Source: Limnochorda pilosa (lineage in GTDB: Bacteria; Bacillota; Limnochordia; Limnochordales; Limnochordaceae). Taken from it: a stretch of DNA of 64,000 nucleotides. The notes beneath the pieces were generated by a model, which was not told the origin of the DNA, searched no databases, and saw only the letters and a program-made list of their open reading frames with translations. A program made the position numbers and the translations under genes. Every line of letters begins with the position of its first letter. Positions within the stretch are counted from its first letter, which is position 1. This document shows positions 3,441-13,525 of the stretch, piece after piece. The DNA lies in contig NZ_AP014924.1 in NCBI RefSeq assembly GCF_001544015.1, positions 1,798,001 to 1,862,000 of the forward strand, in the 5' to 3' direction.

Positions 3441-4634
3441 GTGGAGGTGGAGCCGTTGGGCCGTACCTGGCGGGCTTCGCTGGCGGTGCTGGTGGCTGTG
3501 GTGGTCCTGCGTGCCGGGGCCGTTGGGGCGCAGGAGCTGGAGATCCGCTCCAAGGCGGCCGTCCTCATGGACGCTCAGAGCGGTGACGTCTTCTACCGGA
3601 AGAACGAGCACGAGCCGCTCCCCCCCGCGAGCGTCACCAAGGTGATGACCATGGTCCTGGCCCTGGAGGCGCTCCGCGACGGGCGGGTGGGCTGGGACGA
3701 CCTGGTCTCCACCAGCGAATACGCCGCGTCCATGGGGGGCACCCAGATCTGGCTGGAGCCCGGGGAGCAGATGTCCTTCCGCGACCTCTTGTACGCGGTG
3801 GCCGTCGGCTCGGCCAACGACGCCGCGGTGGCGCTGGCCGAGTACCTGGCCGGGAGCGAGCCGGCCTTCGTCGACCAGATGAACGCCAAGGCTCAGGAGC
3901 TCGGCATGAAGGACACCCGCTTCACCAACCCCAGCGGGCTGCCGCCTGAGGTCCTGGGCAAGAGCGGCCCGCACGTGACCAGCGCCTACGACCTCGCCTT
4001 GCTCTCCCGCTACGCGGTGACCCTTCCCCACTTCCTGGAGATGGTCGCCACCTACGGGCCCTACACCGTGCGCCAGGGAACCGAGGCCGCGGTGGAGCTC
4101 TACAGCTTCAACGACCTCCTTCGAATGTATCAGGGCATGGACGGGATCAAGACGGGTCACACCAACGCGGCGGGGTACTGCCTCGCGGCCACGGCCCAGC
4201 GGGACGGCTTGCGCCTCATCGCGGTCACTCTGGCCGCCTCGACCCGCGCGGAGCGCCAGGCGGACATCACCCGGCTCTTGAACTACGGGTTCAGCCAGTA
4301 CCGGGCCGTGGCGGCGGTGAAGCAGGGGGAGGTCCTCGGCCGCGTCCCCGTGGACCGCGGCGTCCTGGAGACGGTGGAGGCGGTGGCCGCCCGGGACCTC
4401 TTCGTCACCGTACCCCGGGGGACCGCGGCGACCCCCGAGCGGCAGGTGCGCATGGACCCGCGCCCCGCACCGCTCGAAGCCGGCGCACCCGTGGGGGAGG
4501 TCCGGGTCAGCCTGGAGGGGCGGGAGGTGGGCCGTGTCCCCGTGGTGGCCGCCGAGGCGGTGGAGCGGGCGGGGCTGGGGCGCCTGGTCTGGCGGGTGAC
4601 CGAGAAGGCCGTCAACGCCCTTTTCGGCCATTGA
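3441..4634 (+). CDS. dacF: D-alanyl-D-alanine carboxypeptidase (DacF-type)
   Basis: A low-molecular-weight penicillin-binding protein of the S11 family that trims the terminal D-Ala from peptidoglycan stem peptides outside the membrane. The 397 residues begin with a signal peptide (about 1-30, ending AVGA). The serine peptidase motifs follow in order: SVTK at residues 64-67, SAND in the middle, and KTGHT in GIKTGHTNAAGY. A C-terminal beta-rich domain and a short amphipathic tail complete the usual PBP5/DacF architecture. The GTG start lies about 60 bases after pdp. It directly precedes spoIIAA-spoIIAB-sigF, the classic position of dacF in spore formers. Confidence 0.9.
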   Translation: MEVEPLGRTWRASLAVLVAVVVLRAGAVGAQELEIRSKAAVLMDAQSGDVFYRKNEHEPLPPASVTKVMTMVLALEALRDGRVGWDDLVSTSEYAASMGGTQIWLEPGEQMSFRDLLYAVAVGSANDAAVALAEYLAGSEPAFVDQMNAKAQELGMKDTRFTNPSGLPPEVLGKSGPHVTSAYDLALLSRYAVTLPHFLEMVATYGPYTVRQGTEAAVELYSFNDLLRMYQGMDGIKTGHTNAAGYCLAATAQRDGLRLIAVTLAASTRAERQADITRLLNYGFSQYRAVAAVKQGEVLGRVPVDRGVLETVEAVAARDLFVTVPRGTAATPERQVRMDPRPAPLEAGAPVGEVRVSLEGREVGRVPVVAAEAVERAGLGRLVWRVTEKAVNALFGH

Positions 4635-4691
4635 CCGGCAGGAGAAGCGCGGGGAGGCTCCGAATCCCCTGGCTTACCAGGAGGCCAGGGG

Positions 4692-5099
4692 GTGGCGGGC
4701 ATACCGAGCGAAGCCTCATCGCGGCTGGAGGTGCACCGGTACGGCCGGGGAAGCTGCGACGTGCTCAGGCTCGAGGGCGAGCTGGACCTCTCCAGCGTCG
4801 CAAAGGTGCGGGCCGCCCTGCCCGGGGAGGGGCCCGCCCGGGCCGGCCGGCGGCACCTGGTGCTGGACCTCCGCCGGCTCCGCTTCATGGACAGCTCGGG
4901 CCTGGGCGTCTTCTTCGAGCTGTACCGGATCATCGCGGCCCGGGGCGGGCAGACCCGGGTGGCGGGCCCCCAGCCCCCGGTGGAGCGGGTGCTGCGCCTG
5001 GCCGGCTTCCTCAGGCTGGCGGGCCGGGCCGATTCAGTGCACGAGGCGCTACGGTCGCTGGAGGGGGATGGGCCATGGACACCGGGACGCCCGGAGTGA
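4692..5099 (+). CDS. spoIIAA: anti-sigma-F factor antagonist
   Basis: A STAS-domain anti-anti-sigma factor. Unphosphorylated SpoIIAA binds SpoIIAB and frees sigma-F in the forespore; SpoIIAB inactivates it by phosphorylation. The 135 residues show LEGELDLSS near the N terminus and the FMDSSGLGV loop (residues 65-73), which contains the phosphorylated serine. The GTG at 4692 follows an AGGAGG about 8 bases upstream. The coding region overlaps the start of spoIIAB by 25 bases, implying translational coupling. Confidence 0.9.
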   Translation: MAGIPSEASSRLEVHRYGRGSCDVLRLEGELDLSSVAKVRAALPGEGPARAGRRHLVLDLRRLRFMDSSGLGVFFELYRIIAARGGQTRVAGPQPPVERVLRLAGFLRLAGRADSVHEALRSLEGDGPWTPGRPE

Positions 5100-5533
5100 A
5101 GAACAGCGTGCACATGGAGTTCCCGAGCCTGCCCGAGAACGTGGGCTTCGCCCGGGCGTCGGTGGCCTTCTTCGCGTCCCAGCTCGACTTCACCCTGGAC
5201 GAGTTGGACGAGATCAAGGTCGCGGTCTCGGAGGCGGTGAGCAACGCGGTGGTCCACGGCTACCCGCAGGGTCCTGGCCCCGTCGTCGTCGACGTCTCGG
5301 CCACCGAAGCGGGGGAGCTGGTCGTCCAGGTCGCGGACCGGGGCACGGGCATCGAGGACGTGGAGCAGGCCTGCCAAACCAGCTTCACCACCCGGCCCGG
5401 CGAGCGGCTGGGGCTGGGGCTCACCTTCATCAAGGAGTACGCCGACCGGCTCGAGGTGACGTCCCGGCCGGGGGAGGGCACGGTGGTCACTTTCCGCAAG
5501 CGACCGCAGCCGGCGGCGGTCAGCCAGGGATGA
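5075..5533 (+). CDS. spoIIAB: anti-sigma-F factor / SpoIIAA kinase
   Basis: A GHKL-fold serine kinase that holds sigma-F inactive and phosphorylates SpoIIAA. The 152-residue protein shows the N-box EAVSNAVVHGY, the G1 box DRGTGI and the G2 box GLGLTF. The length is close to the usual 146. The ATG at 5075 starts MDTGTPGVKNSVHMEF, leading into the conserved MEFPSLPENVGFAR segment. It overlaps spoIIAA at its start, and its stop overlaps the sigF start in an ATGA arrangement. Confidence 0.92.
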   Translation: MDTGTPGVKNSVHMEFPSLPENVGFARASVAFFASQLDFTLDELDEIKVAVSEAVSNAVVHGYPQGPGPVVVDVSATEAGELVVQVADRGTGIEDVEQACQTSFTTRPGERLGLGLTFIKEYADRLEVTSRPGEGTVVTFRKRPQPAAVSQG

Positions 5534-6273
5534 ACCCCCCCGCGCCGGGATCCGGCGCCGTGGAGCCGGAGGAGCAGGCGCTCTACCGGCGCGCCCGGGA
5601 GGGCGACCCGGAGGCCCGCCAGGAGCTGGCGGTCCGTCACCTGCCCCTGGTGCGCGAGGTGGCCTCCCGCTTCCGGCGGGGTGCCTTCGAGCAGGAGGAG
5701 CTGGTACAGGCTGCCACCGTAGGGCTCCTCAAGGCCCTCCACGGCTTCGACCCCGATCGCGGCTTCCGCTTCTCGACCTATGCGGTACCGGTCATCGCCG
5801 GCGAGGTACGGGCCCTCATCCGCCAGAACCAGGGCCTGCGCGCCGGCCGCCGCCTGGAGGAGCTGGGACGCCGGCTCCGTGCGGAACGGAGCCGCCTCAC
5901 CCAGCTTCTGGAGCGCTCGCCCACCCTGGCCGAGCTGGCCGAGGCGGCGGGGGTGGAGACTGACGAGGCCTTTCAGGCGCTGGAGGCCCTCCGGGAACCC
6001 CTCTCCCTGGAGCAGCCGCTCGCGCCCGAGGATGAGCGGAGGCTCGAGGAACGCCTGGCCGCGAGCACCAGCGAGGAGGAGTGGGCCGAGCGCCTGGCGG
6101 TGGCCGAGGCGCTGGAGCGCCTGGACCCCCGGGAGCGGATCATCGTCCGCTTTCGCTTCTGGGAAGGCCAGAGCCAGAAGGAAGTGGCCGCCCACCTGGG
6201 GCTCTCTCAACCCCAGGTCTCGCGCCTGGAGCGCCGCGCGCTGGAGAGGTTGCGGGCCGAATGGCACGTCTAG
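5530..6273 (+). CDS. sigF: RNA polymerase sporulation sigma factor SigF
   Basis: Forespore-specific sigma factor of early sporulation. The 247-residue protein carries region 2 (LVREVASRF, then DRGFRFSTYAVPVIAGEV), region 3 (SPTLAELAEAAGV) and region 4 with a helix-turn-helix (SQKEVAAHLGLSQPQVSRLE). The ATG is fused to the spoIIAB stop as ATGA. Third in a spoIIAA-spoIIAB-sigF operon, it should be controlled by the two proteins encoded upstream. Confidence 0.93.
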   Translation: MNPPAPGSGAVEPEEQALYRRAREGDPEARQELAVRHLPLVREVASRFRRGAFEQEELVQAATVGLLKALHGFDPDRGFRFSTYAVPVIAGEVRALIRQNQGLRAGRRLEELGRRLRAERSRLTQLLERSPTLAELAEAAGVETDEAFQALEALREPLSLEQPLAPEDERRLEERLAASTSEEEWAERLAVAEALERLDPRERIIVRFRFWEGQSQKEVAAHLGLSQPQVSRLERRALERLRAEWHV

Positions 6274-6284
6274 GGGGCGACCGG

Positions 6285-7139
6285 ATGGACCCGGCCGGGC
6301 TGCAGGACGCGCTGCTGGCCGACCTGCACGTGCACTCCAACGCCTCCGACGGGCGCCGGGAGCCCGCCCAGGTGGTGGAGGAGGCCCGCGCCTCAGGGCT
6401 CCGGGTGGTCGCCCTCACCGACCACGACACCGTGGCCGGCATCGCCGCGGCCCAGGAGGCGGGCCGGCGCATGGGGGTGGAGGTGATCCCGGGGCTGGAG
6501 GTCTCCGCCGCCTGGGCCGGGCACGAGGTTCACCTGCTGGGCTACTTCGTGGACGTGCACTCGCCGGCCCTCGCGCGGCACGTTGCCCTCTTCCAGCGCC
6601 AGCGGCGGCGCCGGGCGCGGCTCATGGTCAGCCGGCTCGCGGCCCTGGGATACCCGGTGGAGTGGGCCCGGGTGCGGGAGCTGGCGGGCTCGGGAAGCGT
6701 CGGGCGCCCCCACGTGGCCAGGGCGCTGCTGGAGAAAGGGTACGTGGGCCGCTTGAACCAGGCTTTCGACCAGTTCCTGGCCGAGGGGCGGCCGGCGTAC
6801 GTCCCCCACGCGCGCCTCTCGGTGCGCGAAGGCATCCGCCTCATCGGCGCCGCCGGTGGGGTGGCCGTCCTGGCCCACCCCTACCTGGCCCAGGTGGACG
6901 GCCTGATCCCGCTCATGCGGGGGCAGGGCCTGGTGGGGCTCGAGGTCGCCCACCCGTCCCACGGGCCCTCGGAGCAGGAGCGCTACCTCCGCCTCGCCCG
7001 CCACCTGGGGCTCCTGCCCACGGGCGGCTCGGACGCCCACGGCAGCGCCGGCCCCCACGACCAGCCCGGACGGGTGCGCATTCCTCTGAGCTGGGTCGAG
7101 GACCTCCGGGCCAGGGCGGCCCCGTCGCCGCACGCCTGA
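6285..7139 (+). CDS. PHP-domain phosphoesterase (YciV/RNase AM-like)
   Basis: A PHP metal-dependent phosphoesterase of the family that includes 3',5'-nucleotide phosphatase/5'-3' exoribonuclease YciV. Metal ligands are visible as DLHVHSNASDG at the N terminus, LTDHDTV, the AHPYL segment and GSDAHG near the C terminus. The length of 284 residues fits. The ATG at 6285 follows a G-rich ribosome site; an in-frame ATG at 6261 would overlap sigF. It begins 11 bases after sigF and may be its last operon partner. The substrate is not evident from sequence. Confidence 0.8.
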   Translation: MDPAGLQDALLADLHVHSNASDGRREPAQVVEEARASGLRVVALTDHDTVAGIAAAQEAGRRMGVEVIPGLEVSAAWAGHEVHLLGYFVDVHSPALARHVALFQRQRRRRARLMVSRLAALGYPVEWARVRELAGSGSVGRPHVARALLEKGYVGRLNQAFDQFLAEGRPAYVPHARLSVREGIRLIGAAGGVAVLAHPYLAQVDGLIPLMRGQGLVGLEVAHPSHGPSEQERYLRLARHLGLLPTGGSDAHGSAGPHDQPGRVRIPLSWVEDLRARAAPSPHA

Positions 7140-7320
7140 GCGTGCCGACACCCGGCTCCCACGTCTAACACCCATTGCCAGAAGGGTTGCCGGGCTCCGC
7201 CCGGAACTCTCAGGGGACGACAGCCACCTGACCGAGGGGGGCCCGGCGGGCCCCGTCTCCCAGCTGCAGCCGTCGACGCACCACTCAACGCAGCCTTCGT
7301 CGCAGAAAGGGTGGCTCAAC
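7140..7320 (+). other. structured leader before the acetyltransferase gene
   Basis: This 181-base gap contains a CCGGGC-TCC-GCCCGG hairpin followed by AACTCTCAGG and then a GACAG. Upstream of the hairpin is GCCAGAAGGGTTGCC. This order is reminiscent of the core of a glycine riboswitch aptamer, but a matching 5' P1 strand was not found. A second, longer hairpin follows (7238-7254). No coding sequence was identified here. Confidence 0.3.
7238..7254 (+). terminator. GC-rich perfect hairpin (terminator-like)
   Basis: GGGGCCC-GGC-GGGCCCC forms a 7-bp stem with a 3-base loop, 66 bases before the acetyltransferase start. There is no following T run. It could be a factor-assisted terminator of the sigF/PHP unit or the expression platform of the leader. 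Confidence 0.4.
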
Positions 7321-7860
7321 ATGACCGACCGCGGGCAACGGGTCCGCTTGCGCCCCCTGCAACCCCAGGACCTGGACCACATCGTTCGCTGGACCAACGA
7401 CCCCGAGATCCGCGAGCTCCTGGAGGGCGAGTACCCGGAGGAGCCCGACGAGGGCCGCCTGTGGTACCAGCGTGCATGCAGCGACCGCCGCAGCCGCCAG
7501 TTCATCATCGAGGCCCAGGATGGCACGGCCATCGGCGACATCGCCCTGGGCGAGATCAGCTGGCGGGCCAGGGAAGGGGAGCTCCGCATCCGCATCGGCG
7601 AGAAAGCCTACTGGGACCAGGGCTACGGCACCGAGGCCGTACGGGCGCTCCTGGCCTACGCCTTCGAGGAGCTCGGATTCCGCCGGGTTTACCTGCGCGT
7701 CTTCACCTCCAACCGCCGCGCGATCCGGTGTTACGTCAAGAGCGGCTTCCTCCCCGAGGGGCGCTTGGTCCGCAAGGCTTCCGACGGGATGCCGAAGGAG
7801 ATCCTGCTGATGACGGCTCGCCCCGATTCCCGAGGGCACCGCCTGCCGCAGACGTCCTGA
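7321..7860 (+). CDS. GNAT-family N-acetyltransferase (RimJ/RimL-like)
   Basis: Transfers an acetyl group from acetyl-CoA to an amine, often a protein N terminus or a small amine. The 179-residue protein has the GNAT core: an N-terminal RLRPLQPQDLDHI segment, the acetyl-CoA motif A in the region GYGTEAVRALLAYAFEELGF (residues about 101-120), and the SNRRAIRCYVKSGF motif B. The ATG follows an AAAGGGTGG ribosome site. Its last 125 bases overlap a convergent spore-protein gene on the other strand. The substrate cannot be told from sequence. Confidence 0.85.
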   Translation: MTDRGQRVRLRPLQPQDLDHIVRWTNDPEIRELLEGEYPEEPDEGRLWYQRACSDRRSRQFIIEAQDGTAIGDIALGEISWRAREGELRIRIGEKAYWDQGYGTEAVRALLAYAFEELGFRRVYLRVFTSNRRAIRCYVKSGFLPEGRLVRKASDGMPKEILLMTARPDSRGHRLPQTS

Positions 7861-8328: not shown

Positions 8329-8943
8329 ATGGTGGACATCTTCATCCAGGGCGGACCGGTCATGATCCCTCTCGGGCTGCTTTCCCTCATCGGGTTTGCG
8401 GTCTTCCTCGAGCGCATCTGGTACCTCCGCCGGAACCGCGCCAACACCGACGAGCTTGTCGAGGAGGTCCACGTCGCGCTGGAACAGGAGCGGCTCCTGG
8501 AGGCGGTCCAGATCGCCAAGCGCCATCGGGGTCCGGTGGCGGCGGTCCTGTCGGTGGCCGTGGCCAACTTCGACCGCCCCTCGCGCGAGCTCAGGGAGCG
8601 CATCGAGCAGGCCGGGCAAGATGAGGTGTACAAGATGGAGCGACGGCTGGTCTGGCTCGAGACCATCGCGGCCATCGCCCCGCTGCTTGGGCTCCTGGGG
8701 ACCGTCCTCGGCATCATCGACAGCTTTCAGATCCTGTCGGCGGCCCAGGGCGTGGGCGACCCGGCGGCCATCAGCTCCGGCATCGCGCAGGCCCTCATCA
8801 CCACCGCAGCCGGGCTGATCATCGCGATCCCGACTCTCTTCGCCCACAACTGGTTGAGCAGCATCGTGGACCGCCGGGTGCAGGACATGAACCGGGCGGC
8901 GTCGGAGGTCGTCGAGATCCACAACCTCCGGGGGGTGGCCTGA
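8329..8943 (+). CDS. exbB: ExbB/TolQ/MotA-family proton channel subunit
   Basis: Inner-membrane proton channel component that, with ExbD, energises TonB. The 204 residues show an N-terminal membrane helix (MIPLGLLSLIGFAVFLERIW), a cytoplasmic loop, and two C-terminal helices including the IAPLLGLLGTVLGII segment conserved in the MotA/TolQ/ExbB family. The ATG at 8329 was chosen; an in-frame TTG 9 bases earlier is also possible. It is followed directly by exbD and tonB, so the assignment as the TonB energiser is firm. In a Firmicute this system implies an outer membrane. Confidence 0.9.
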   Translation: MVDIFIQGGPVMIPLGLLSLIGFAVFLERIWYLRRNRANTDELVEEVHVALEQERLLEAVQIAKRHRGPVAAVLSVAVANFDRPSRELRERIEQAGQDEVYKMERRLVWLETIAAIAPLLGLLGTVLGIIDSFQILSAAQGVGDPAAISSGIAQALITTAAGLIIAIPTLFAHNWLSSIVDRRVQDMNRAASEVVEIHNLRGVA

Positions 8944-9345
8944 TTGATCACGCGGCGGCGCCGCCCCCGCACGGCGGTCAACATCGTCCCGTTGATCGAC
9001 GTGATGTTCTTCCTGGTGGTCTTCTTCATGCTTTTCACCACCTTCCGCACCGAACCGGCGGGGCTGGACGTCCAGCTGCCGAGGGCGGCCACGGCGCGCC
9101 AGAACGTACCCTCGGAGCTGGTGGTGACCGTTCGCGAGGACGGCCGCTTCTACCTGGGCGGCCGCGCCGTCACCTCCGCCGAGCTCCAGCAGGAGATCCG
9201 CCGCGCCCTGGCGGACCGGCCCGATCTGCTGGTGATCATCCGGGGTGACCGCCGGGCCCGGTACGAGCAGGTGGTGCGTGCCATCGACGACGTCCGCTCG
9301 GTGGGCGGCTACCGCCTCGCGCTGGCCGTTCGCACCGACACGTAG
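8944..9345 (+). CDS. exbD: ExbD/TolR-family biopolymer transport protein
   Basis: Partner of ExbB in the proton channel. The 133-residue protein has one N-terminal membrane helix (VNIVPLIDVMFFLVVFFM) with the conserved aspartate that carries protons (D in PLIDV, about residue 19), followed by a periplasmic domain. It uses a TTG start placed immediately after the exbB TGA, so translation is coupled. The length fits the family. Confidence 0.9.
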   Translation: MITRRRRPRTAVNIVPLIDVMFFLVVFFMLFTTFRTEPAGLDVQLPRAATARQNVPSELVVTVREDGRFYLGGRAVTSAELQQEIRRALADRPDLLVIIRGDRRARYEQVVRAIDDVRSVGGYRLALAVRTDT

Positions 9346-9424
9346 GACAGGCTGGCCGGTTCCCGGAAGACAGGGCGCCGCCGGCTGCACGGGCACGGCT
9401 CGGCAGGGCAGGGGGGAGACGACC

Positions 9425-10333
9425 GTGGGACGTGAACCGGACAGCTCGCCGATGGGCACCTTCCTGCTCATCTCCGCGTTGCTCCACGTGGTGGTGCTCC
9501 TCTTCGCGCCCCAGTGGGCCAACCGGGCGGGCGCCCAGCTCCCGTCGCTGCTGAGCGGGGGCGTGGTCCAGGTGGTACGTGTGGACGAGCCCACGGCCGC
9601 GCAGCGGACCACGCCGCAGCCCGTCCAGCCCGAGCGGAAGCCCCCGCCTGCGCCCCCGAAGCCGGAACCGAAGCCCGCCACCGCGCCGGAACCGAAGCCG
9701 ACGCCGGCCGACCGTGCCGAACAGGAGGCGCCCCCGGAGCCAGCCATCCAGGCTCCGGCCCAGGCCAGGCCAGCCGACCGGCCGCTCACCAGCACGCAGG
9801 GCCAGGAGCCCGCGCCCGAGGCGCGCAAGCCGCAGCCCGCCCCCAAGCCGGAGCCGAAACCGGCCCCCCAGCCCTCGCCCAAGGAGCCGCCGGCGGACCA
9901 GGCCGCCCCCGAGCAGGACGGCGCGGCGGCCAGTACGGAGCCGGCCTCGGAGCCGGTCCCCGAGGATCCGGGACCCCCGCGCCTGCCGCCGCTGGGCGAG
10001 CCCGGATCGCTCCTCACCCTGGGCGGCACCGCCCTGGGCTACCCGAAGAACGCGGAGAACCAGGGCCTGGAGGGAGAGGTGCAGCTCCGCCTCGAGCTGG
10101 ACGCCAACGGCCAGGTCCAGCGGGTGGTATTGCTCGAGCCCTCTGGCCACAAGGTTCTGGATGACTACGCAGTACGAGGGGTGGAGTACCGGGTGCGGAC
10201 CGGCCAGCTTCACGCCACGCGCCAGGCGGCGCCGTACGCCGTTCGTATCCGGGTTTCCTTCCGCCGAGACGGCGGCGCGTTCGTGGGCCAGTTGGAACCC
10301 GTAGGATCCGCGGAGTACCTCCAGGAGAGATGA
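9425..10333 (+). CDS. tonB: TonB-like energy transducer
   Basis: Spans the periplasm to couple the ExbBD proton channel to outer-membrane receptors. The 302 residues show an N-terminal membrane anchor (residues about 12-30), a long proline/lysine/glutamate-rich rod (about 60-180, many KPEPKP repeats), and a C-terminal TonB domain. That domain includes GEVQLRLELDANGQV and a final YRVRTGQLHA...PYAVRIRVSF region. The GTG at 9425 follows a GGGGGGAG site. Its TGA overlaps the next gene's ATG. No TonB-dependent receptor is encoded in the window. Confidence 0.85.
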   Translation: MGREPDSSPMGTFLLISALLHVVVLLFAPQWANRAGAQLPSLLSGGVVQVVRVDEPTAAQRTTPQPVQPERKPPPAPPKPEPKPATAPEPKPTPADRAEQEAPPEPAIQAPAQARPADRPLTSTQGQEPAPEARKPQPAPKPEPKPAPQPSPKEPPADQAAPEQDGAAASTEPASEPVPEDPGPPRLPPLGEPGSLLTLGGTALGYPKNAENQGLEGEVQLRLELDANGQVQRVVLLEPSGHKVLDDYAVRGVEYRVRTGQLHATRQAAPYAVRIRVSFRRDGGAFVGQLEPVGSAEYLQER

Positions 10334-12441
10334 TGCTGATGCAGCGCCGATCGCAGACCCGCCTCCTCGCGGCGCCGCTGGTGCTGGCCCTGAGCCTGTG
10401 CCTGGCGGCGGCGCCTGCCGCCCTCGGCCAGGAGAAGGCCGCCGGGGGCGGCAGCTCCGAGCTGGTCACCGTGGCCAACGAGTACGTGGAGATCCTGGTG
10501 AACGCGGGCCGCAACGACACGGGCCGCTTCGCCGTCTACACGACCGGCGGCGACCCCGACCGCCCCGAGGACGATCAGAAGCCGCTCATCTACGGGACGC
10601 GGGACCCGGGTCCCTGGACCAGCTACACCACGGTTCAGATCGACGGGGTGAGTTGGGTCTTCGGGGGGCCCGCCCAGCGGCGGGCCGGCCGGAGCGCCAA
10701 CTACGGCACCGCGGTCCGCCTGCCCGAGCGAGAGGGCGACGCGGTGGTGGCCGCCTGGAACCTGGGACCCCTGGAGGTGACCCAGACCCTCAGCTTCGCC
10801 CGGAGCCTCACCACGGGCCTGATGGACACGGTGCGGATCGCCTACCACGTCGAGAACACCGACAGCCGCCCGCACCGAGTGGGCCTCAGGATCATGCTGG
10901 ACACCATGCTGGGCGAGAACGACGGGGCGCCCTTCCGGGTGGCCGAGCGGGCCATCACCACCGACACCCCTCTGGTGGGCGCCGAGATCCCCGAGTTCTG
11001 GCAAGCCTTCGACGACCTGGGCAACCCGCAGGTGATGGCCCAGGGCACCCTCCGACACCCGGGGGAGGCGCCGCCCGAGCGCGTCTACATGAGCAACTGG
11101 GGAAGCCTGGCCGACGGGGCGTGGAGCTTCGACTTCCAAGCGGGTCGTGACTTCACCCGCAAGGGCGAGTTCGACCTGGACTCGGCCATCGCCCTCTTCT
11201 GGGACCCGAAGGAGCTGGCCGCGGGCGAGGGCCGTGACTACGTGACCTACTACGGGCTGGGTGGCATCGACATCGCGCCCGGGCAGCTCTCGCTGGGCCT
11301 GACCTCGGCCAAGGAGATCGAGGGGTCCCAGGATCAGCCCCGGCCGTTCACGGTGGTCGCTTACGTTCAGAACACGGGCGCGGGCGACGCGCTCAACGTC
11401 GTCGCGGAGTTGATCCCGCCCAGGGAGTTCCAGGTGGTGGGGGGCGAGGCCGAGGCCCGCCGCAGCCTGGGGAACCTCCCATCGGGCGGCACCGGGCAGG
11501 TCCGGTGGGAACTGGAGGTGCCGCCGGGCACCGTGGGGACCTTTACGTACCGGGTTCGGGTGAGCGCCACCAACGCCGAGTCCAACGAGGGGAGCCGCGG
11601 GGTGGAGGTGCTTGCCCCGGCTCGCCTGCAGGTGCAGGTGGACGCCCTCCAGCGGCTCGGGCAGGCCGACGGCGGGGGCTACGACCCCGGACGGTTCCAG
11701 GTGAAGGTGACGCTCCACAATGCGGGCGGCTCCTCGGCCGAGTGGGTGCTGGCGCGCCTCGCCCCCGCGGTGCAGGGCCAGCTCCGCCTGGTACCCGGCG
11801 ACGCCGAACAGAGGCTCCTGCGGCGTCTGGGGCCGGGGGAGAGCCAGGAGCTCGTATGGGAGCTCCGGCCCACCGGCCAGTATGACGGCAACTTCTACTA
11901 CAACGTCGCGGTGGGGGCGAGCAACACCGGAGAGCCCCAGCGGATTTCCCGGTCCATCCAGGTGCCGAGGCTGCAGGCGCGCCTCTGGCTGGAACCCGAG
12001 GCTCCTTCAGACGCGGAGCGGCCCTTCCGCGATGGGAACCTGGATGTCTACGTCCGTGCCATGAATCTGAGGAGCTTCTGGGGCGGCTCCGTGGTGATTC
12101 GGTACGATCCTGAGCGCCTACGGCTCCTGCGCGTCGAACCTGGGCGACTCTTGATCGAGGGGAGCGTGGGTCACTGGGGTGAGCCGGACATCTCGCAACC
12201 CGGCCGAGTGATCATCTCCGGAGACAGGGCCGGATGGTCCCCTCTGATTCTCGCCACGGATACCTTCGCCAGGCTTGAGTTCAAAGTCGTCGGGAGCGGG
12301 CCCACCACGCTAGCCCTCGAGAGCGTGGCGCTCTCGGCCGAGGCGGGCCAGCCCCCCCAGAGGGTGACCCCGTCCGCGGGCCTGGCGGTGCAAGAGGACG
12401 TGCAGGTGTGGTTGGCGGAACCGAAGACCGAAGAGCCCTGA
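10330..12441 (+). CDS. large secreted protein with Ig-like repeats and a C-terminal cohesin-like domain
   Basis: A 703-residue exported protein with a signal peptide (about 1-35, ending ALGQ). It has an N-terminal beta-rich domain of unknown type (about 45-320). Two CARDB/DUF11-like Ig modules follow, each with phrases such as VVAYVQNTGAGDALNV and VKVTLHNAGGSSAEW. The C-terminal module (about 560-700) contains GGSVVIRYDPERLRLL and PGRVIISG, a cohesin-like pattern. Its ATG overlaps the tonB stop, so it is expressed with the ExbBD-TonB system. The function is unknown; a periplasmic or surface scaffold role is inference. Confidence 0.6.
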   Translation: MMLMQRRSQTRLLAAPLVLALSLCLAAAPAALGQEKAAGGGSSELVTVANEYVEILVNAGRNDTGRFAVYTTGGDPDRPEDDQKPLIYGTRDPGPWTSYTTVQIDGVSWVFGGPAQRRAGRSANYGTAVRLPEREGDAVVAAWNLGPLEVTQTLSFARSLTTGLMDTVRIAYHVENTDSRPHRVGLRIMLDTMLGENDGAPFRVAERAITTDTPLVGAEIPEFWQAFDDLGNPQVMAQGTLRHPGEAPPERVYMSNWGSLADGAWSFDFQAGRDFTRKGEFDLDSAIALFWDPKELAAGEGRDYVTYYGLGGIDIAPGQLSLGLTSAKEIEGSQDQPRPFTVVAYVQNTGAGDALNVVAELIPPREFQVVGGEAEARRSLGNLPSGGTGQVRWELEVPPGTVGTFTYRVRVSATNAESNEGSRGVEVLAPARLQVQVDALQRLGQADGGGYDPGRFQVKVTLHNAGGSSAEWVLARLAPAVQGQLRLVPGDAEQRLLRRLGPGESQELVWELRPTGQYDGNFYYNVAVGASNTGEPQRISRSIQVPRLQARLWLEPEAPSDAERPFRDGNLDVYVRAMNLRSFWGGSVVIRYDPERLRLLRVEPGRLLIEGSVGHWGEPDISQPGRVIISGDRAGWSPLILATDTFARLEFKVVGSGPTTLALESVALSAEAGQPPQRVTPSAGLAVQEDVQVWLAEPKTEEP

Positions 12442-12475
12442 GTTGGCTTTTTGCTTGCGAAAGGAAGTGGACACG

Positions 12476-13525
12476 GTGCAGCAGCATTCGCTCCATGGCC
12501 GGACCCGGGTCCGGGGCTGGGCCCGCAGGGCCGTTGCCTTGGCTCTCACCCTCCTGGTCCTGGCGCCCGCTCCCCTCTGGGCCCAGGAACAGACGATCCG
12601 CGATGTTCCCAGCGGGCACTGGGCGTACGAGGCCGTACGCCGCCTCATCGACGAGGGGTACCTCACCCTCTACGATGACCGGACCTTCCGGGGGGACCAG
12701 CCCGTCGACCGCTACACCTTCGCGGCCGCCATCGCGCGGATCCTGGATCAGGTCGGCTCCGGGGCCGCCACACCCTCCTCTTCGGACGTTCAGGTCCTCA
12801 AGGACCTGGCCACCGAGTTCCGCCAGGAGCTCCGGGACTGGTACCAGTCCGAGGAGACCCTGACCCAACGGATCCAGGCGGCCGAGAAGTCCGTGGCGGC
12901 CCTGGACGGCACCGTCGGGTCGGTCCTGGCCAAGGTGGACTCCCTGGAGCAGGCGGCGGCCCAACGGGACGCGAACCTGAAGGGGCTGGCCGACCAGGCC
13001 GGGCAGATCTCCCAGGACCTGGCCAAGCTCCGGGAGGACCTGGGTCTCCAGACGGGCACCCTGGACCAGCGTTTGGCCGAGTTCCAGAACCAGATCGAGG
13101 GCGACCTGGGGGTTCAGGGCATCAACCTGGGCCAGAACCTGGCGGACCTGTCGAGCCGGCTCAAGCAGACCTCCGAACGCCTCGCCCAGCAGGCCGACGT
13201 GGCCACCCAGCTCCAGGGCCAGGTGGACGAGCTCCAGAAGAGCCTGCAGCAGCAGCGTCAGGAGATGACGGGGGCGGACCGCCAGCTCCTCGCCGAGATC
13301 CGGGACCTGGCCAACCGCCTGGACGTGCTCCAGAGCACGCCGGGGACGGTGGCGGGCGTCCAGACCCGGCAGCTCCAGCTCGAGCGCCAGCTTGCCACCC
13401 TCCAGCGCGACTTCGACGCCTACCGCAGCAAGGCGGAGGAGGAGACCCGCACGCTGCGCACCACCAGCGTCGTGGGGGTGGCGGCGGCGCTGGTGGCGGT
13501 GGTGGCGGCCCTGGTCATCAAGTAG
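12476..13525 (+). CDS. SLH-coiled-coil-membrane-anchor protein (Omp-alpha-like spacer)
   Basis: A 349-residue exported protein: signal peptide (ending PLWAQEQ), one S-layer-homology domain directly after it (IRDVPSGHWAYEAVRRLIDE, then GDQPVDRYTFAAAIARIL), about 230 residues of heptad-rich coiled coil, and a hydrophobic C-terminal helix (VVGVAAALVAVVAALVIK). This order matches Omp-alpha of Thermotoga, a rod that holds the outer membrane at a fixed distance from peptidoglycan. SLH domains bind wall polysaccharide and the end helix would sit in the outer membrane. The GTG at 12476 has an AAAGGA site. It closes the exbB-exbD-tonB cluster. Confidence 0.7.
   Translation: MQQHSLHGRTRVRGWARRAVALALTLLVLAPAPLWAQEQTIRDVPSGHWAYEAVRRLIDEGYLTLYDDRTFRGDQPVDRYTFAAAIARILDQVGSGAATPSSSDVQVLKDLATEFRQELRDWYQSEETLTQRIQAAEKSVAALDGTVGSVLAKVDSLEQAAAQRDANLKGLADQAGQISQDLAKLREDLGLQTGTLDQRLAEFQNQIEGDLGVQGINLGQNLADLSSRLKQTSERLAQQADVATQLQGQVDELQKSLQQQRQEMTGADRQLLAEIRDLANRLDVLQSTPGTVAGVQTRQLQLERQLATLQRDFDAYRSKAEEETRTLRTTSVVGVAAALVAVVAALVIK

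Follow-up and report, generated by a model that had tools for sequence, protein, structure and literature searches.

In Escherichia coli, the Tol-Pal system manages the tether between the cell wall and the outer membrane. It has been reported so far only from Gracilicutes, and Ton systems have been seen among diderm Firmicutes only in Negativicutes (PMC12204202), while diderm Terrabacteria lack both outer-membrane lipoproteins and Pal (PMC11784454, PMC10628300). The 2009 genome paper on Halothermothrix orenii noticed ExbB, ExbD and TonB without receptors and suggested a different function for them (PMC2626281). An SLH domain, a long coiled coil and about 20 hydrophobic C-terminal residues make up OmpA1 (Omp-alpha) of Thermotoga, a layout that goes with the outer sheath (PMC3387000). 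As for Limnochordia, the citing passage of PMC11456536 credits Taib 2020 with outer-membrane markers in all genomes of the class studied there, and electron micrographs of two species are available (PMC11456536); an outer membrane in this class is already published and not new. Here we describe a five-gene cassette of Limnochorda pilosa that combines a motor of the ExbB-ExbD-TonB kind with an Omp-alpha-like protein. Beyond the remark on a receptor-less ExbBD-TonB in H. orenii, a search of open-licence articles, which did not extend to the main reviews on Terrabacteria or to the work of Taib and Witwinowski, gave no description of this operon.

Results

Five envelope genes in one cassette

The window, i.e. 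the whole stretch of 64,000 nucleotides that was analyzed, had been predicted from its sequence to contain ExbB, ExbD, TonB, a large secreted protein and an SLH protein, as well as sporulation genes. All five were found where they had been placed, on the + strand from 8329 to 13525 and in the order exbB-exbD-tonB-P703-SLHt, as were the sporulation genes, which lie directly upstream of the PHP/GNAT/cassette stretch (Table 1).

Table 1 Features of the cassette and its upstream neighbors (positions in the window)
Feature	Positions	Strand	Evidence
ExbB/TolQ-like proton channel subunit, 204 aa, ATG 8329	8329..8943	+	Pfam MotA_ExbB 6.8e-33
ExbD/TolR-like subunit, 133 aa, TTG start, LIDVMFF motif	8944..9345	+	Pfam ExbD 7.2e-30
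TonB-like force transducer, 302 aa	9425..10333	+	Pfam TonB_C 8.1e-11; NCBIfam tonB_Cterm 7e-11
P703, secreted periplasmic-type protein, 703 aa	10330..12441	+	Pfam NPCBM_assoc/CARDB, structure model
SLHt, Omp-alpha-like protein, 349 aa, GTG 12476	12476..13525	+	Pfam SLH 5.5e-7, structure model
dacF-like carboxypeptidase gene, spoIIAA, spoIIAB, sigF (outside the cassette)	3441..6273	+	NCBIfam
PHP phosphoesterase, GNAT acetyltransferase (outside the cassette)	6081..7860	+	

The LIDVMFF motif of ExbD holds the aspartate that carries the proton. The start of tonB, read from the sequence, is a GTG preceded by aggggggag; its product consists of an N-terminal membrane helix, a Pro/Lys/Glu-rich linker and a standard TonB C-terminal domain, and its stop is overlapped by the start of P703. 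By Pfam, homologues of all three components of a TonB system are present, and the operon equally holds the channel pair of TolQ/TolR type and the transducer of TolA/TonB type that a Tol-Pal operon would have, TolQ and ExbB being inseparable by score. In NCBIfam, the cassette ExbB matched tolQ best (107 bits vs 80 bits for exbB, both below the cut-offs), and the ExbB/ExbD pair scored best with tolQ/tolR; receptor-linked control copies showed the same bias, and these scores were therefore dropped as a test of Tol against Ton.

P703 is matched by no NCBIfam family. Its structure model, built from 63 sequences (mean pLDDT 88), revealed a signal peptide, a galactose-mutarotase-like super-beta-sandwich (residues 41-330), two Ig-like domains and a type II cohesin fold (548-697). 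A Foldseek search with the whole 703-aa model returned long, low-TM matches to Ig chains (integrins, ciliary proteins) and was set aside for per-domain alignment. The latter matched residues 41-330 to the N-domains of GH94 phosphorylases and to aldose epimerases (Z about 16-17, about 3 Å, 220-240 residues). This domain, the most conserved part of P703, is a sugar fold by its modeled structure, and a role as an enzyme is putative only. Residues 549-694 aligned to 3l8q (Z 15.9, 2.2 Å, 134 residues), the profile of P703 orthologues matched type II cohesins of the PDB (3l8q, 3.3e-8), and Pfam Cohesin matched 19 of the 30 orthologues; both the type II jelly-roll fold and a profile match therefore bear out the cohesin-like end of the original prediction. 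The TolB fold, a Rossmann-like N-domain followed by a six-bladed propeller, was not found in P703, whose Pfam domains are other ones and whose modeled N- and C-terminal parts are mutarotase-like and cohesin, respectively. Nor was there an obvious TonB box in P703; the first strand of the orthologues starts soon after the signal peptide, and it may resemble the TolA-binding N-terminus of TolB.

For SLHt, an SLH, coiled-coil and terminal-helix architecture like that of Omp-alpha had been proposed, and the Pfam match and the structure model agree with both parts of that proposal. From the N-terminus, the model runs through a signal helix, one SLH domain (about 43-94) and a long, twice-interrupted helix (coiled coil, 102 to about 327) to a hydrophobic helix at the very end. 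A C-terminal outer-membrane beta-barrel was absent from this all-helical model, and the tails of 65 SLHt-like proteins were helical as well; no lipobox was seen in SLHt. Its N-terminus weakly matched the SLH porin model NF033921 (6.3e-14, below the cut-off). A hydrophobic helix closes every one of the 65 complete SLHt-like proteins scored, followed by a median of 1 residue, and stalk length ranges between about 112 and 688 residues; such a design, fixed at both ends and variable in the spacer, is to be expected of a tether that joins two layers. In hydrophobicity, the tail of SLHt equals the membrane helix of TonB. Very long stalks occur in frames of 733-845 aa (L118, L119, L113) and in one of 1447 aa (L086:7936-12276), in which the hydrophobic end is kept.

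Outer-membrane genes of the host

We searched the complete genome, a single contig of 3,817,036 bases. Profile search revealed a BamA that carries POTRA repeats, genes for OmpH and LpxD adjoining bamA, and LptF/G about 20 kb from this cluster, beside SLH proteins that end in F. Proteins that form outer-membrane barrels end in this residue. Together, BamA, OmpH, LpxD, LptF/G and SLH proteins with a barrel-type F end indicate a diderm with sporulation genes, as originally predicted, and these sequence data support an outer membrane in the bearer of this genome. A lack of BamA, named beforehand as an observation that would refute the prediction, was not seen. Two other frames were noticed. One, of 694 aa, lies beside bamA at 3.253 Mb, within the cluster of outer-membrane genes (L012:17340-19421, - strand), and includes a Peptidase_S55 domain of SpoIVB type. 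The other, of 1361 aa at 2.826 Mb (L015:6494-10576, - strand), combines an acyl-transferase (AAT) domain with TPR repeats and an Omp85 domain; it may be an unusual fusion or may merely stay open by chance, the DNA being rich in GC.

No Pal was found in the genome, its sole OmpA domain being that of MotB. OmpA-domain matches across the class were at first considered as Pal candidates; for this genome the reading was rejected, the match being MotB, beside MotA and flagellar genes.

TonB-dependent receptors

The Pfam Plug domain gave no match in the complete genome at an E-value of 0.1, a profile search that would miss very divergent receptors, and only one ExbD is encoded there. In Limnochordia, Pfam detected Plug in 9 of the 72 genomes and ExbD in 68. 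Fourteen genomes of Limnochordia and Halanaerobiia bear receptors. In nine of these, exbBD lies within about 4 kb of the receptor, and in one it sits on a short separate contig; two have only a tonB nearby, and another two have neither exbBD nor tonB near the receptor. In a tree of 131 alignment columns with some long branches, 71 cassette ExbDs were split from 10 second copies by a branch with 100/99 support. The absence or rarity of receptors, the separate receptor-linked exbBD and this split indicate that the cassette is a system of its own and can do without receptors. The original idea that its TonB energizes outer-membrane receptors thus found no support, since Plug is lacking here and rare in the class, and receptors usually come with an Exb/TonB set of their own.

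Conservation and distribution of the cassette

P703 was detected in 69 of the 72 Limnochordia genomes, one match (G067) being short and weak. A scan for relatives with one genome per species yielded 186 of them, and the best 80 of these 186, which included Halanaerobacter, Fuchsiella, Orenia, Halonatronum, Natroniella and Halanaerobium from among the cultured Halanaerobiia, were used for the analysis of loci. Among these best 80, the order exbB-exbD-tonB-P703-SLHt on a single strand was kept in 59/59 loci whose flanks were long enough on either side, in 65/65 with sufficient upstream flank and in 71/72 with sufficient downstream flank, the sole exception being L125 (Candidatus Hebobacteria). 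An order constant in all 59 loci places the cassette far from chance, and judged from these sequences it is a class-wide core operon of Limnochordia, common to Halanaerobiia. At the exceptional locus, the slot of SLHt after P703 (L125:3600-4100) is taken by a 157-aa protein with a signal peptide, a coiled coil and a C-terminal helix and with no SLH domain.

In many Limnochordia (L058, L063, L073, L129 and others), the cassette stands between spoIIA-sigF and spoVAC-D-E, so that blocks of sporulation and envelope genes succeed each other on a single strand. We considered this neighborhood as a functional clue and dropped it, because the Halanaerobiia loci examined keep the cassette without an adjoining spoIIA; the neighborhood is therefore taken as inherited. 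The PHP gene precedes exbB in Halanaerobiia as in Limnochordia. In Halanaerobiia, SLHt is followed by a gene for a secreted Hydrolase_2 protein, a cell-wall hydrolase of SleB/CwlJ type (L108:8572-9189), which was also noted at the same place in L111, L114, L120, L122, L126, L128 and L132. A second short SLH protein is encoded upstream of exbB in three loci (L107:3040-3738, L112:1188-1919 and L130:2656-3369; Pfam SLH confirmed for L112), as if the tether had been duplicated.

A phylum sample of 249 genomes contained 63 with Omp85 and 55, from 27 families, with full-length P703. Each of these 55 also has Omp85, and P703 was missing from all 186 genomes of the sample that lack Omp85 (Fisher 5e-47, kinship not corrected for). 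Omp85 without P703 was seen in eight genomes: six belong to family f44, which may be Negativicutes, another belongs to f74, and the last is an incomplete genome from a family that otherwise bears P703. Some diderm Firmicutes thus do without P703. Its N-terminal half was also noticed within larger open frames of genomes that lack Omp85 (G251, G254, G225, G305, G088), which indicates that the sugar-fold domain has a second context outside the operon.

Discussion

The data establish five genes in a conserved order that are restricted to genomes with BamA and independent of receptors. What they do together is less certain: we see an even chance that they form one envelope-spanning tether system, driven by the proton motive force, that works like Tol-Pal and is built from other parts. 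ExbB-ExbD would be the inner-membrane motor, the TonB-like protein an arm across the periplasm, P703 a soluble adaptor in the place of TolB, and SLHt the wall-binding, membrane-anchored tether in the place of Pal. The SLH domain of SLHt would hold peptidoglycan or its polymer, the coiled coil would span the gap, and the terminal helix in the outer membrane would replace a lipid anchor. A pull of the arm on P703 might release or relocate SLHt and so keep the outer membrane in step with the wall, division being the most likely occasion. We infer from gene order that a Tol-Pal-like working is the most likely one, and the interactions, the presence of SLHt in the outer membrane and the role in division are proposed on the same footing. 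The prediction of a compact outer-membrane tether and energy module was a good reading, with the membrane location of SLHt putative; it did not include the conservation of the operon or its Tol-Pal-like order.

Several observations led us to favor a Tol-Pal-like tether: (i) P703 is class-wide (69/72) and occurs in Halanaerobiia, with the gene order kept in 59/59 loci; (ii) it is confined to genomes with Omp85 (55 vs 0/186); (iii) receptors are absent or rare while ExbD is found in 68/72 genomes, and the two kinds of ExbD are split at 100/99; (iv) the genome has no Pal; (v) the C-terminal helix is present in 65/65 SLHt-like proteins; (vi) the gene order equals that of tolQRAB-pal; and (vii) a cell-wall hydrolase follows the cassette in Halanaerobiia. 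Against it count the lack of a TolB fold or TonB box in P703, the likeness of the SLHt tail to the TonB helix, the mute ExbB/ExbD scores, and the eight BamA genomes without P703.

The motor might instead power transport or export, with TonB pulling on P703, whose folds would handle a glycan, glycolipid or surface protein crossing the periplasm, and with SLHt as a static spacer. The match of residues 41-330 to carbohydrate-active folds at Z 16-17, the strong conservation of this N-terminal part and the binding-type cohesin at the C-terminus would suit such a role, and tethering could be left to the separate SLH-barrel proteins; however, no gene for a substrate, enzyme or transporter is a constant partner, and SLHt is as constant a neighbor as TonB, which makes this explanation rather unlikely in our view. 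The likeness of the SLHt tail to the TonB membrane helix leads to another alternative, since the inner membrane is where a secreted protein that ends in a helix would be retained by default: SLHt would be anchored there, a MotAB-like motor would act on peptidoglycan from inside, and P703 would be a head that binds wall glycan. We regard this arrangement as improbable, given that no positive tail follows the helix (a median of 1 residue), that Thermotoga OmpA1, which is laid out alike, is associated with the outer sheath (PMC3387000) and that the cassette is restricted to genomes with BamA.

Conventional nutrient uptake, in which ExbB-ExbD-TonB drives receptors and the two downstream envelope genes are unrelated neighbors by chance, is given similarly little credence. 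It is at odds with the lack of Plug in this genome and in 63/72 of the class, with receptors that usually bring their own exbBD and with the linkage of P703 and SLHt in 59/59 loci. What speaks for it is that TonB_C is an ordinary TonB domain and that in two Halanaerobiia genomes a tonB lies close to a receptor but the cassette supplies the sole ExbD, so that the motor could be shared there.

We suggest, tentatively and with slightly less than even confidence, that Limnochordia and Halanaerobiia share an unrecognized counterpart of Tol-Pal, in which a TonB paralogue is combined with an adaptor bearing a sugar fold and a cohesin and with an SLH tether that has no lipid. If true, energized management of the outer membrane would not be confined to Gracilicutes and either arose at least twice or was ancestral in a different form, and diderm Firmicutes, which were thought to do without the job done by Tol-Pal in E. 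coli, would have a means for it. Since diderm Terrabacteria have no outer-membrane lipoproteins (PMC11784454), they cannot use Pal, and a helix-anchored SLH protein is the substitute to be expected. The operon is a testable candidate for how the outer membrane follows the wall at division in these bacteria, and culturable genera carry it (Halanaerobium, Orenia, Halanaerobacter and Natroniella). It also offers an answer to the receptor-less ExbB/ExbD/TonB of H. orenii (PMC2626281), and its tight link to BamA makes it a marker for outer membranes among these lineages, which bears on outer-membrane loss in Firmicutes.

Comparison with known systems

Residues 549-694 of P703 have the fold of cellulosomal type II cohesins, but in P703 this domain is single and belongs to a periplasmic-type protein. 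SLHt shares an SLH domain and a coiled-coil stalk with the porins OmpM and SlpA; unlike them, it has no C-terminal barrel, and the SLH-barrel-type proteins of the genome are separate and lie in the outer-membrane gene cluster. In architecture, its layout is the same as that of Thermotoga Omp-alpha; Omp-alpha has been described beside the porin Omp-beta, and SLHt stands beside a motor operon. With receptor-driving ExbB-ExbD-TonB systems, the cassette has a homologous motor and the TonB C-terminal domain in common; it differs from them in having no receptor here and in most of the class, in its fixed linkage to P703 and SLHt, and in an ExbD distinct from the receptor-linked one. As to Tol-Pal, the cassette contains no TolB fold, no OmpA-type wall domain and no lipoprotein, and lacking TolB and Pal it is not a member of that family. 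It nevertheless follows the tolQ-tolR-tolA-tolB-pal plan in its order (motor, motor, arm, soluble periplasmic beta protein, anchored wall binder) and, like Tol-Pal, is present regardless of receptors and tied to the possession of an outer membrane.
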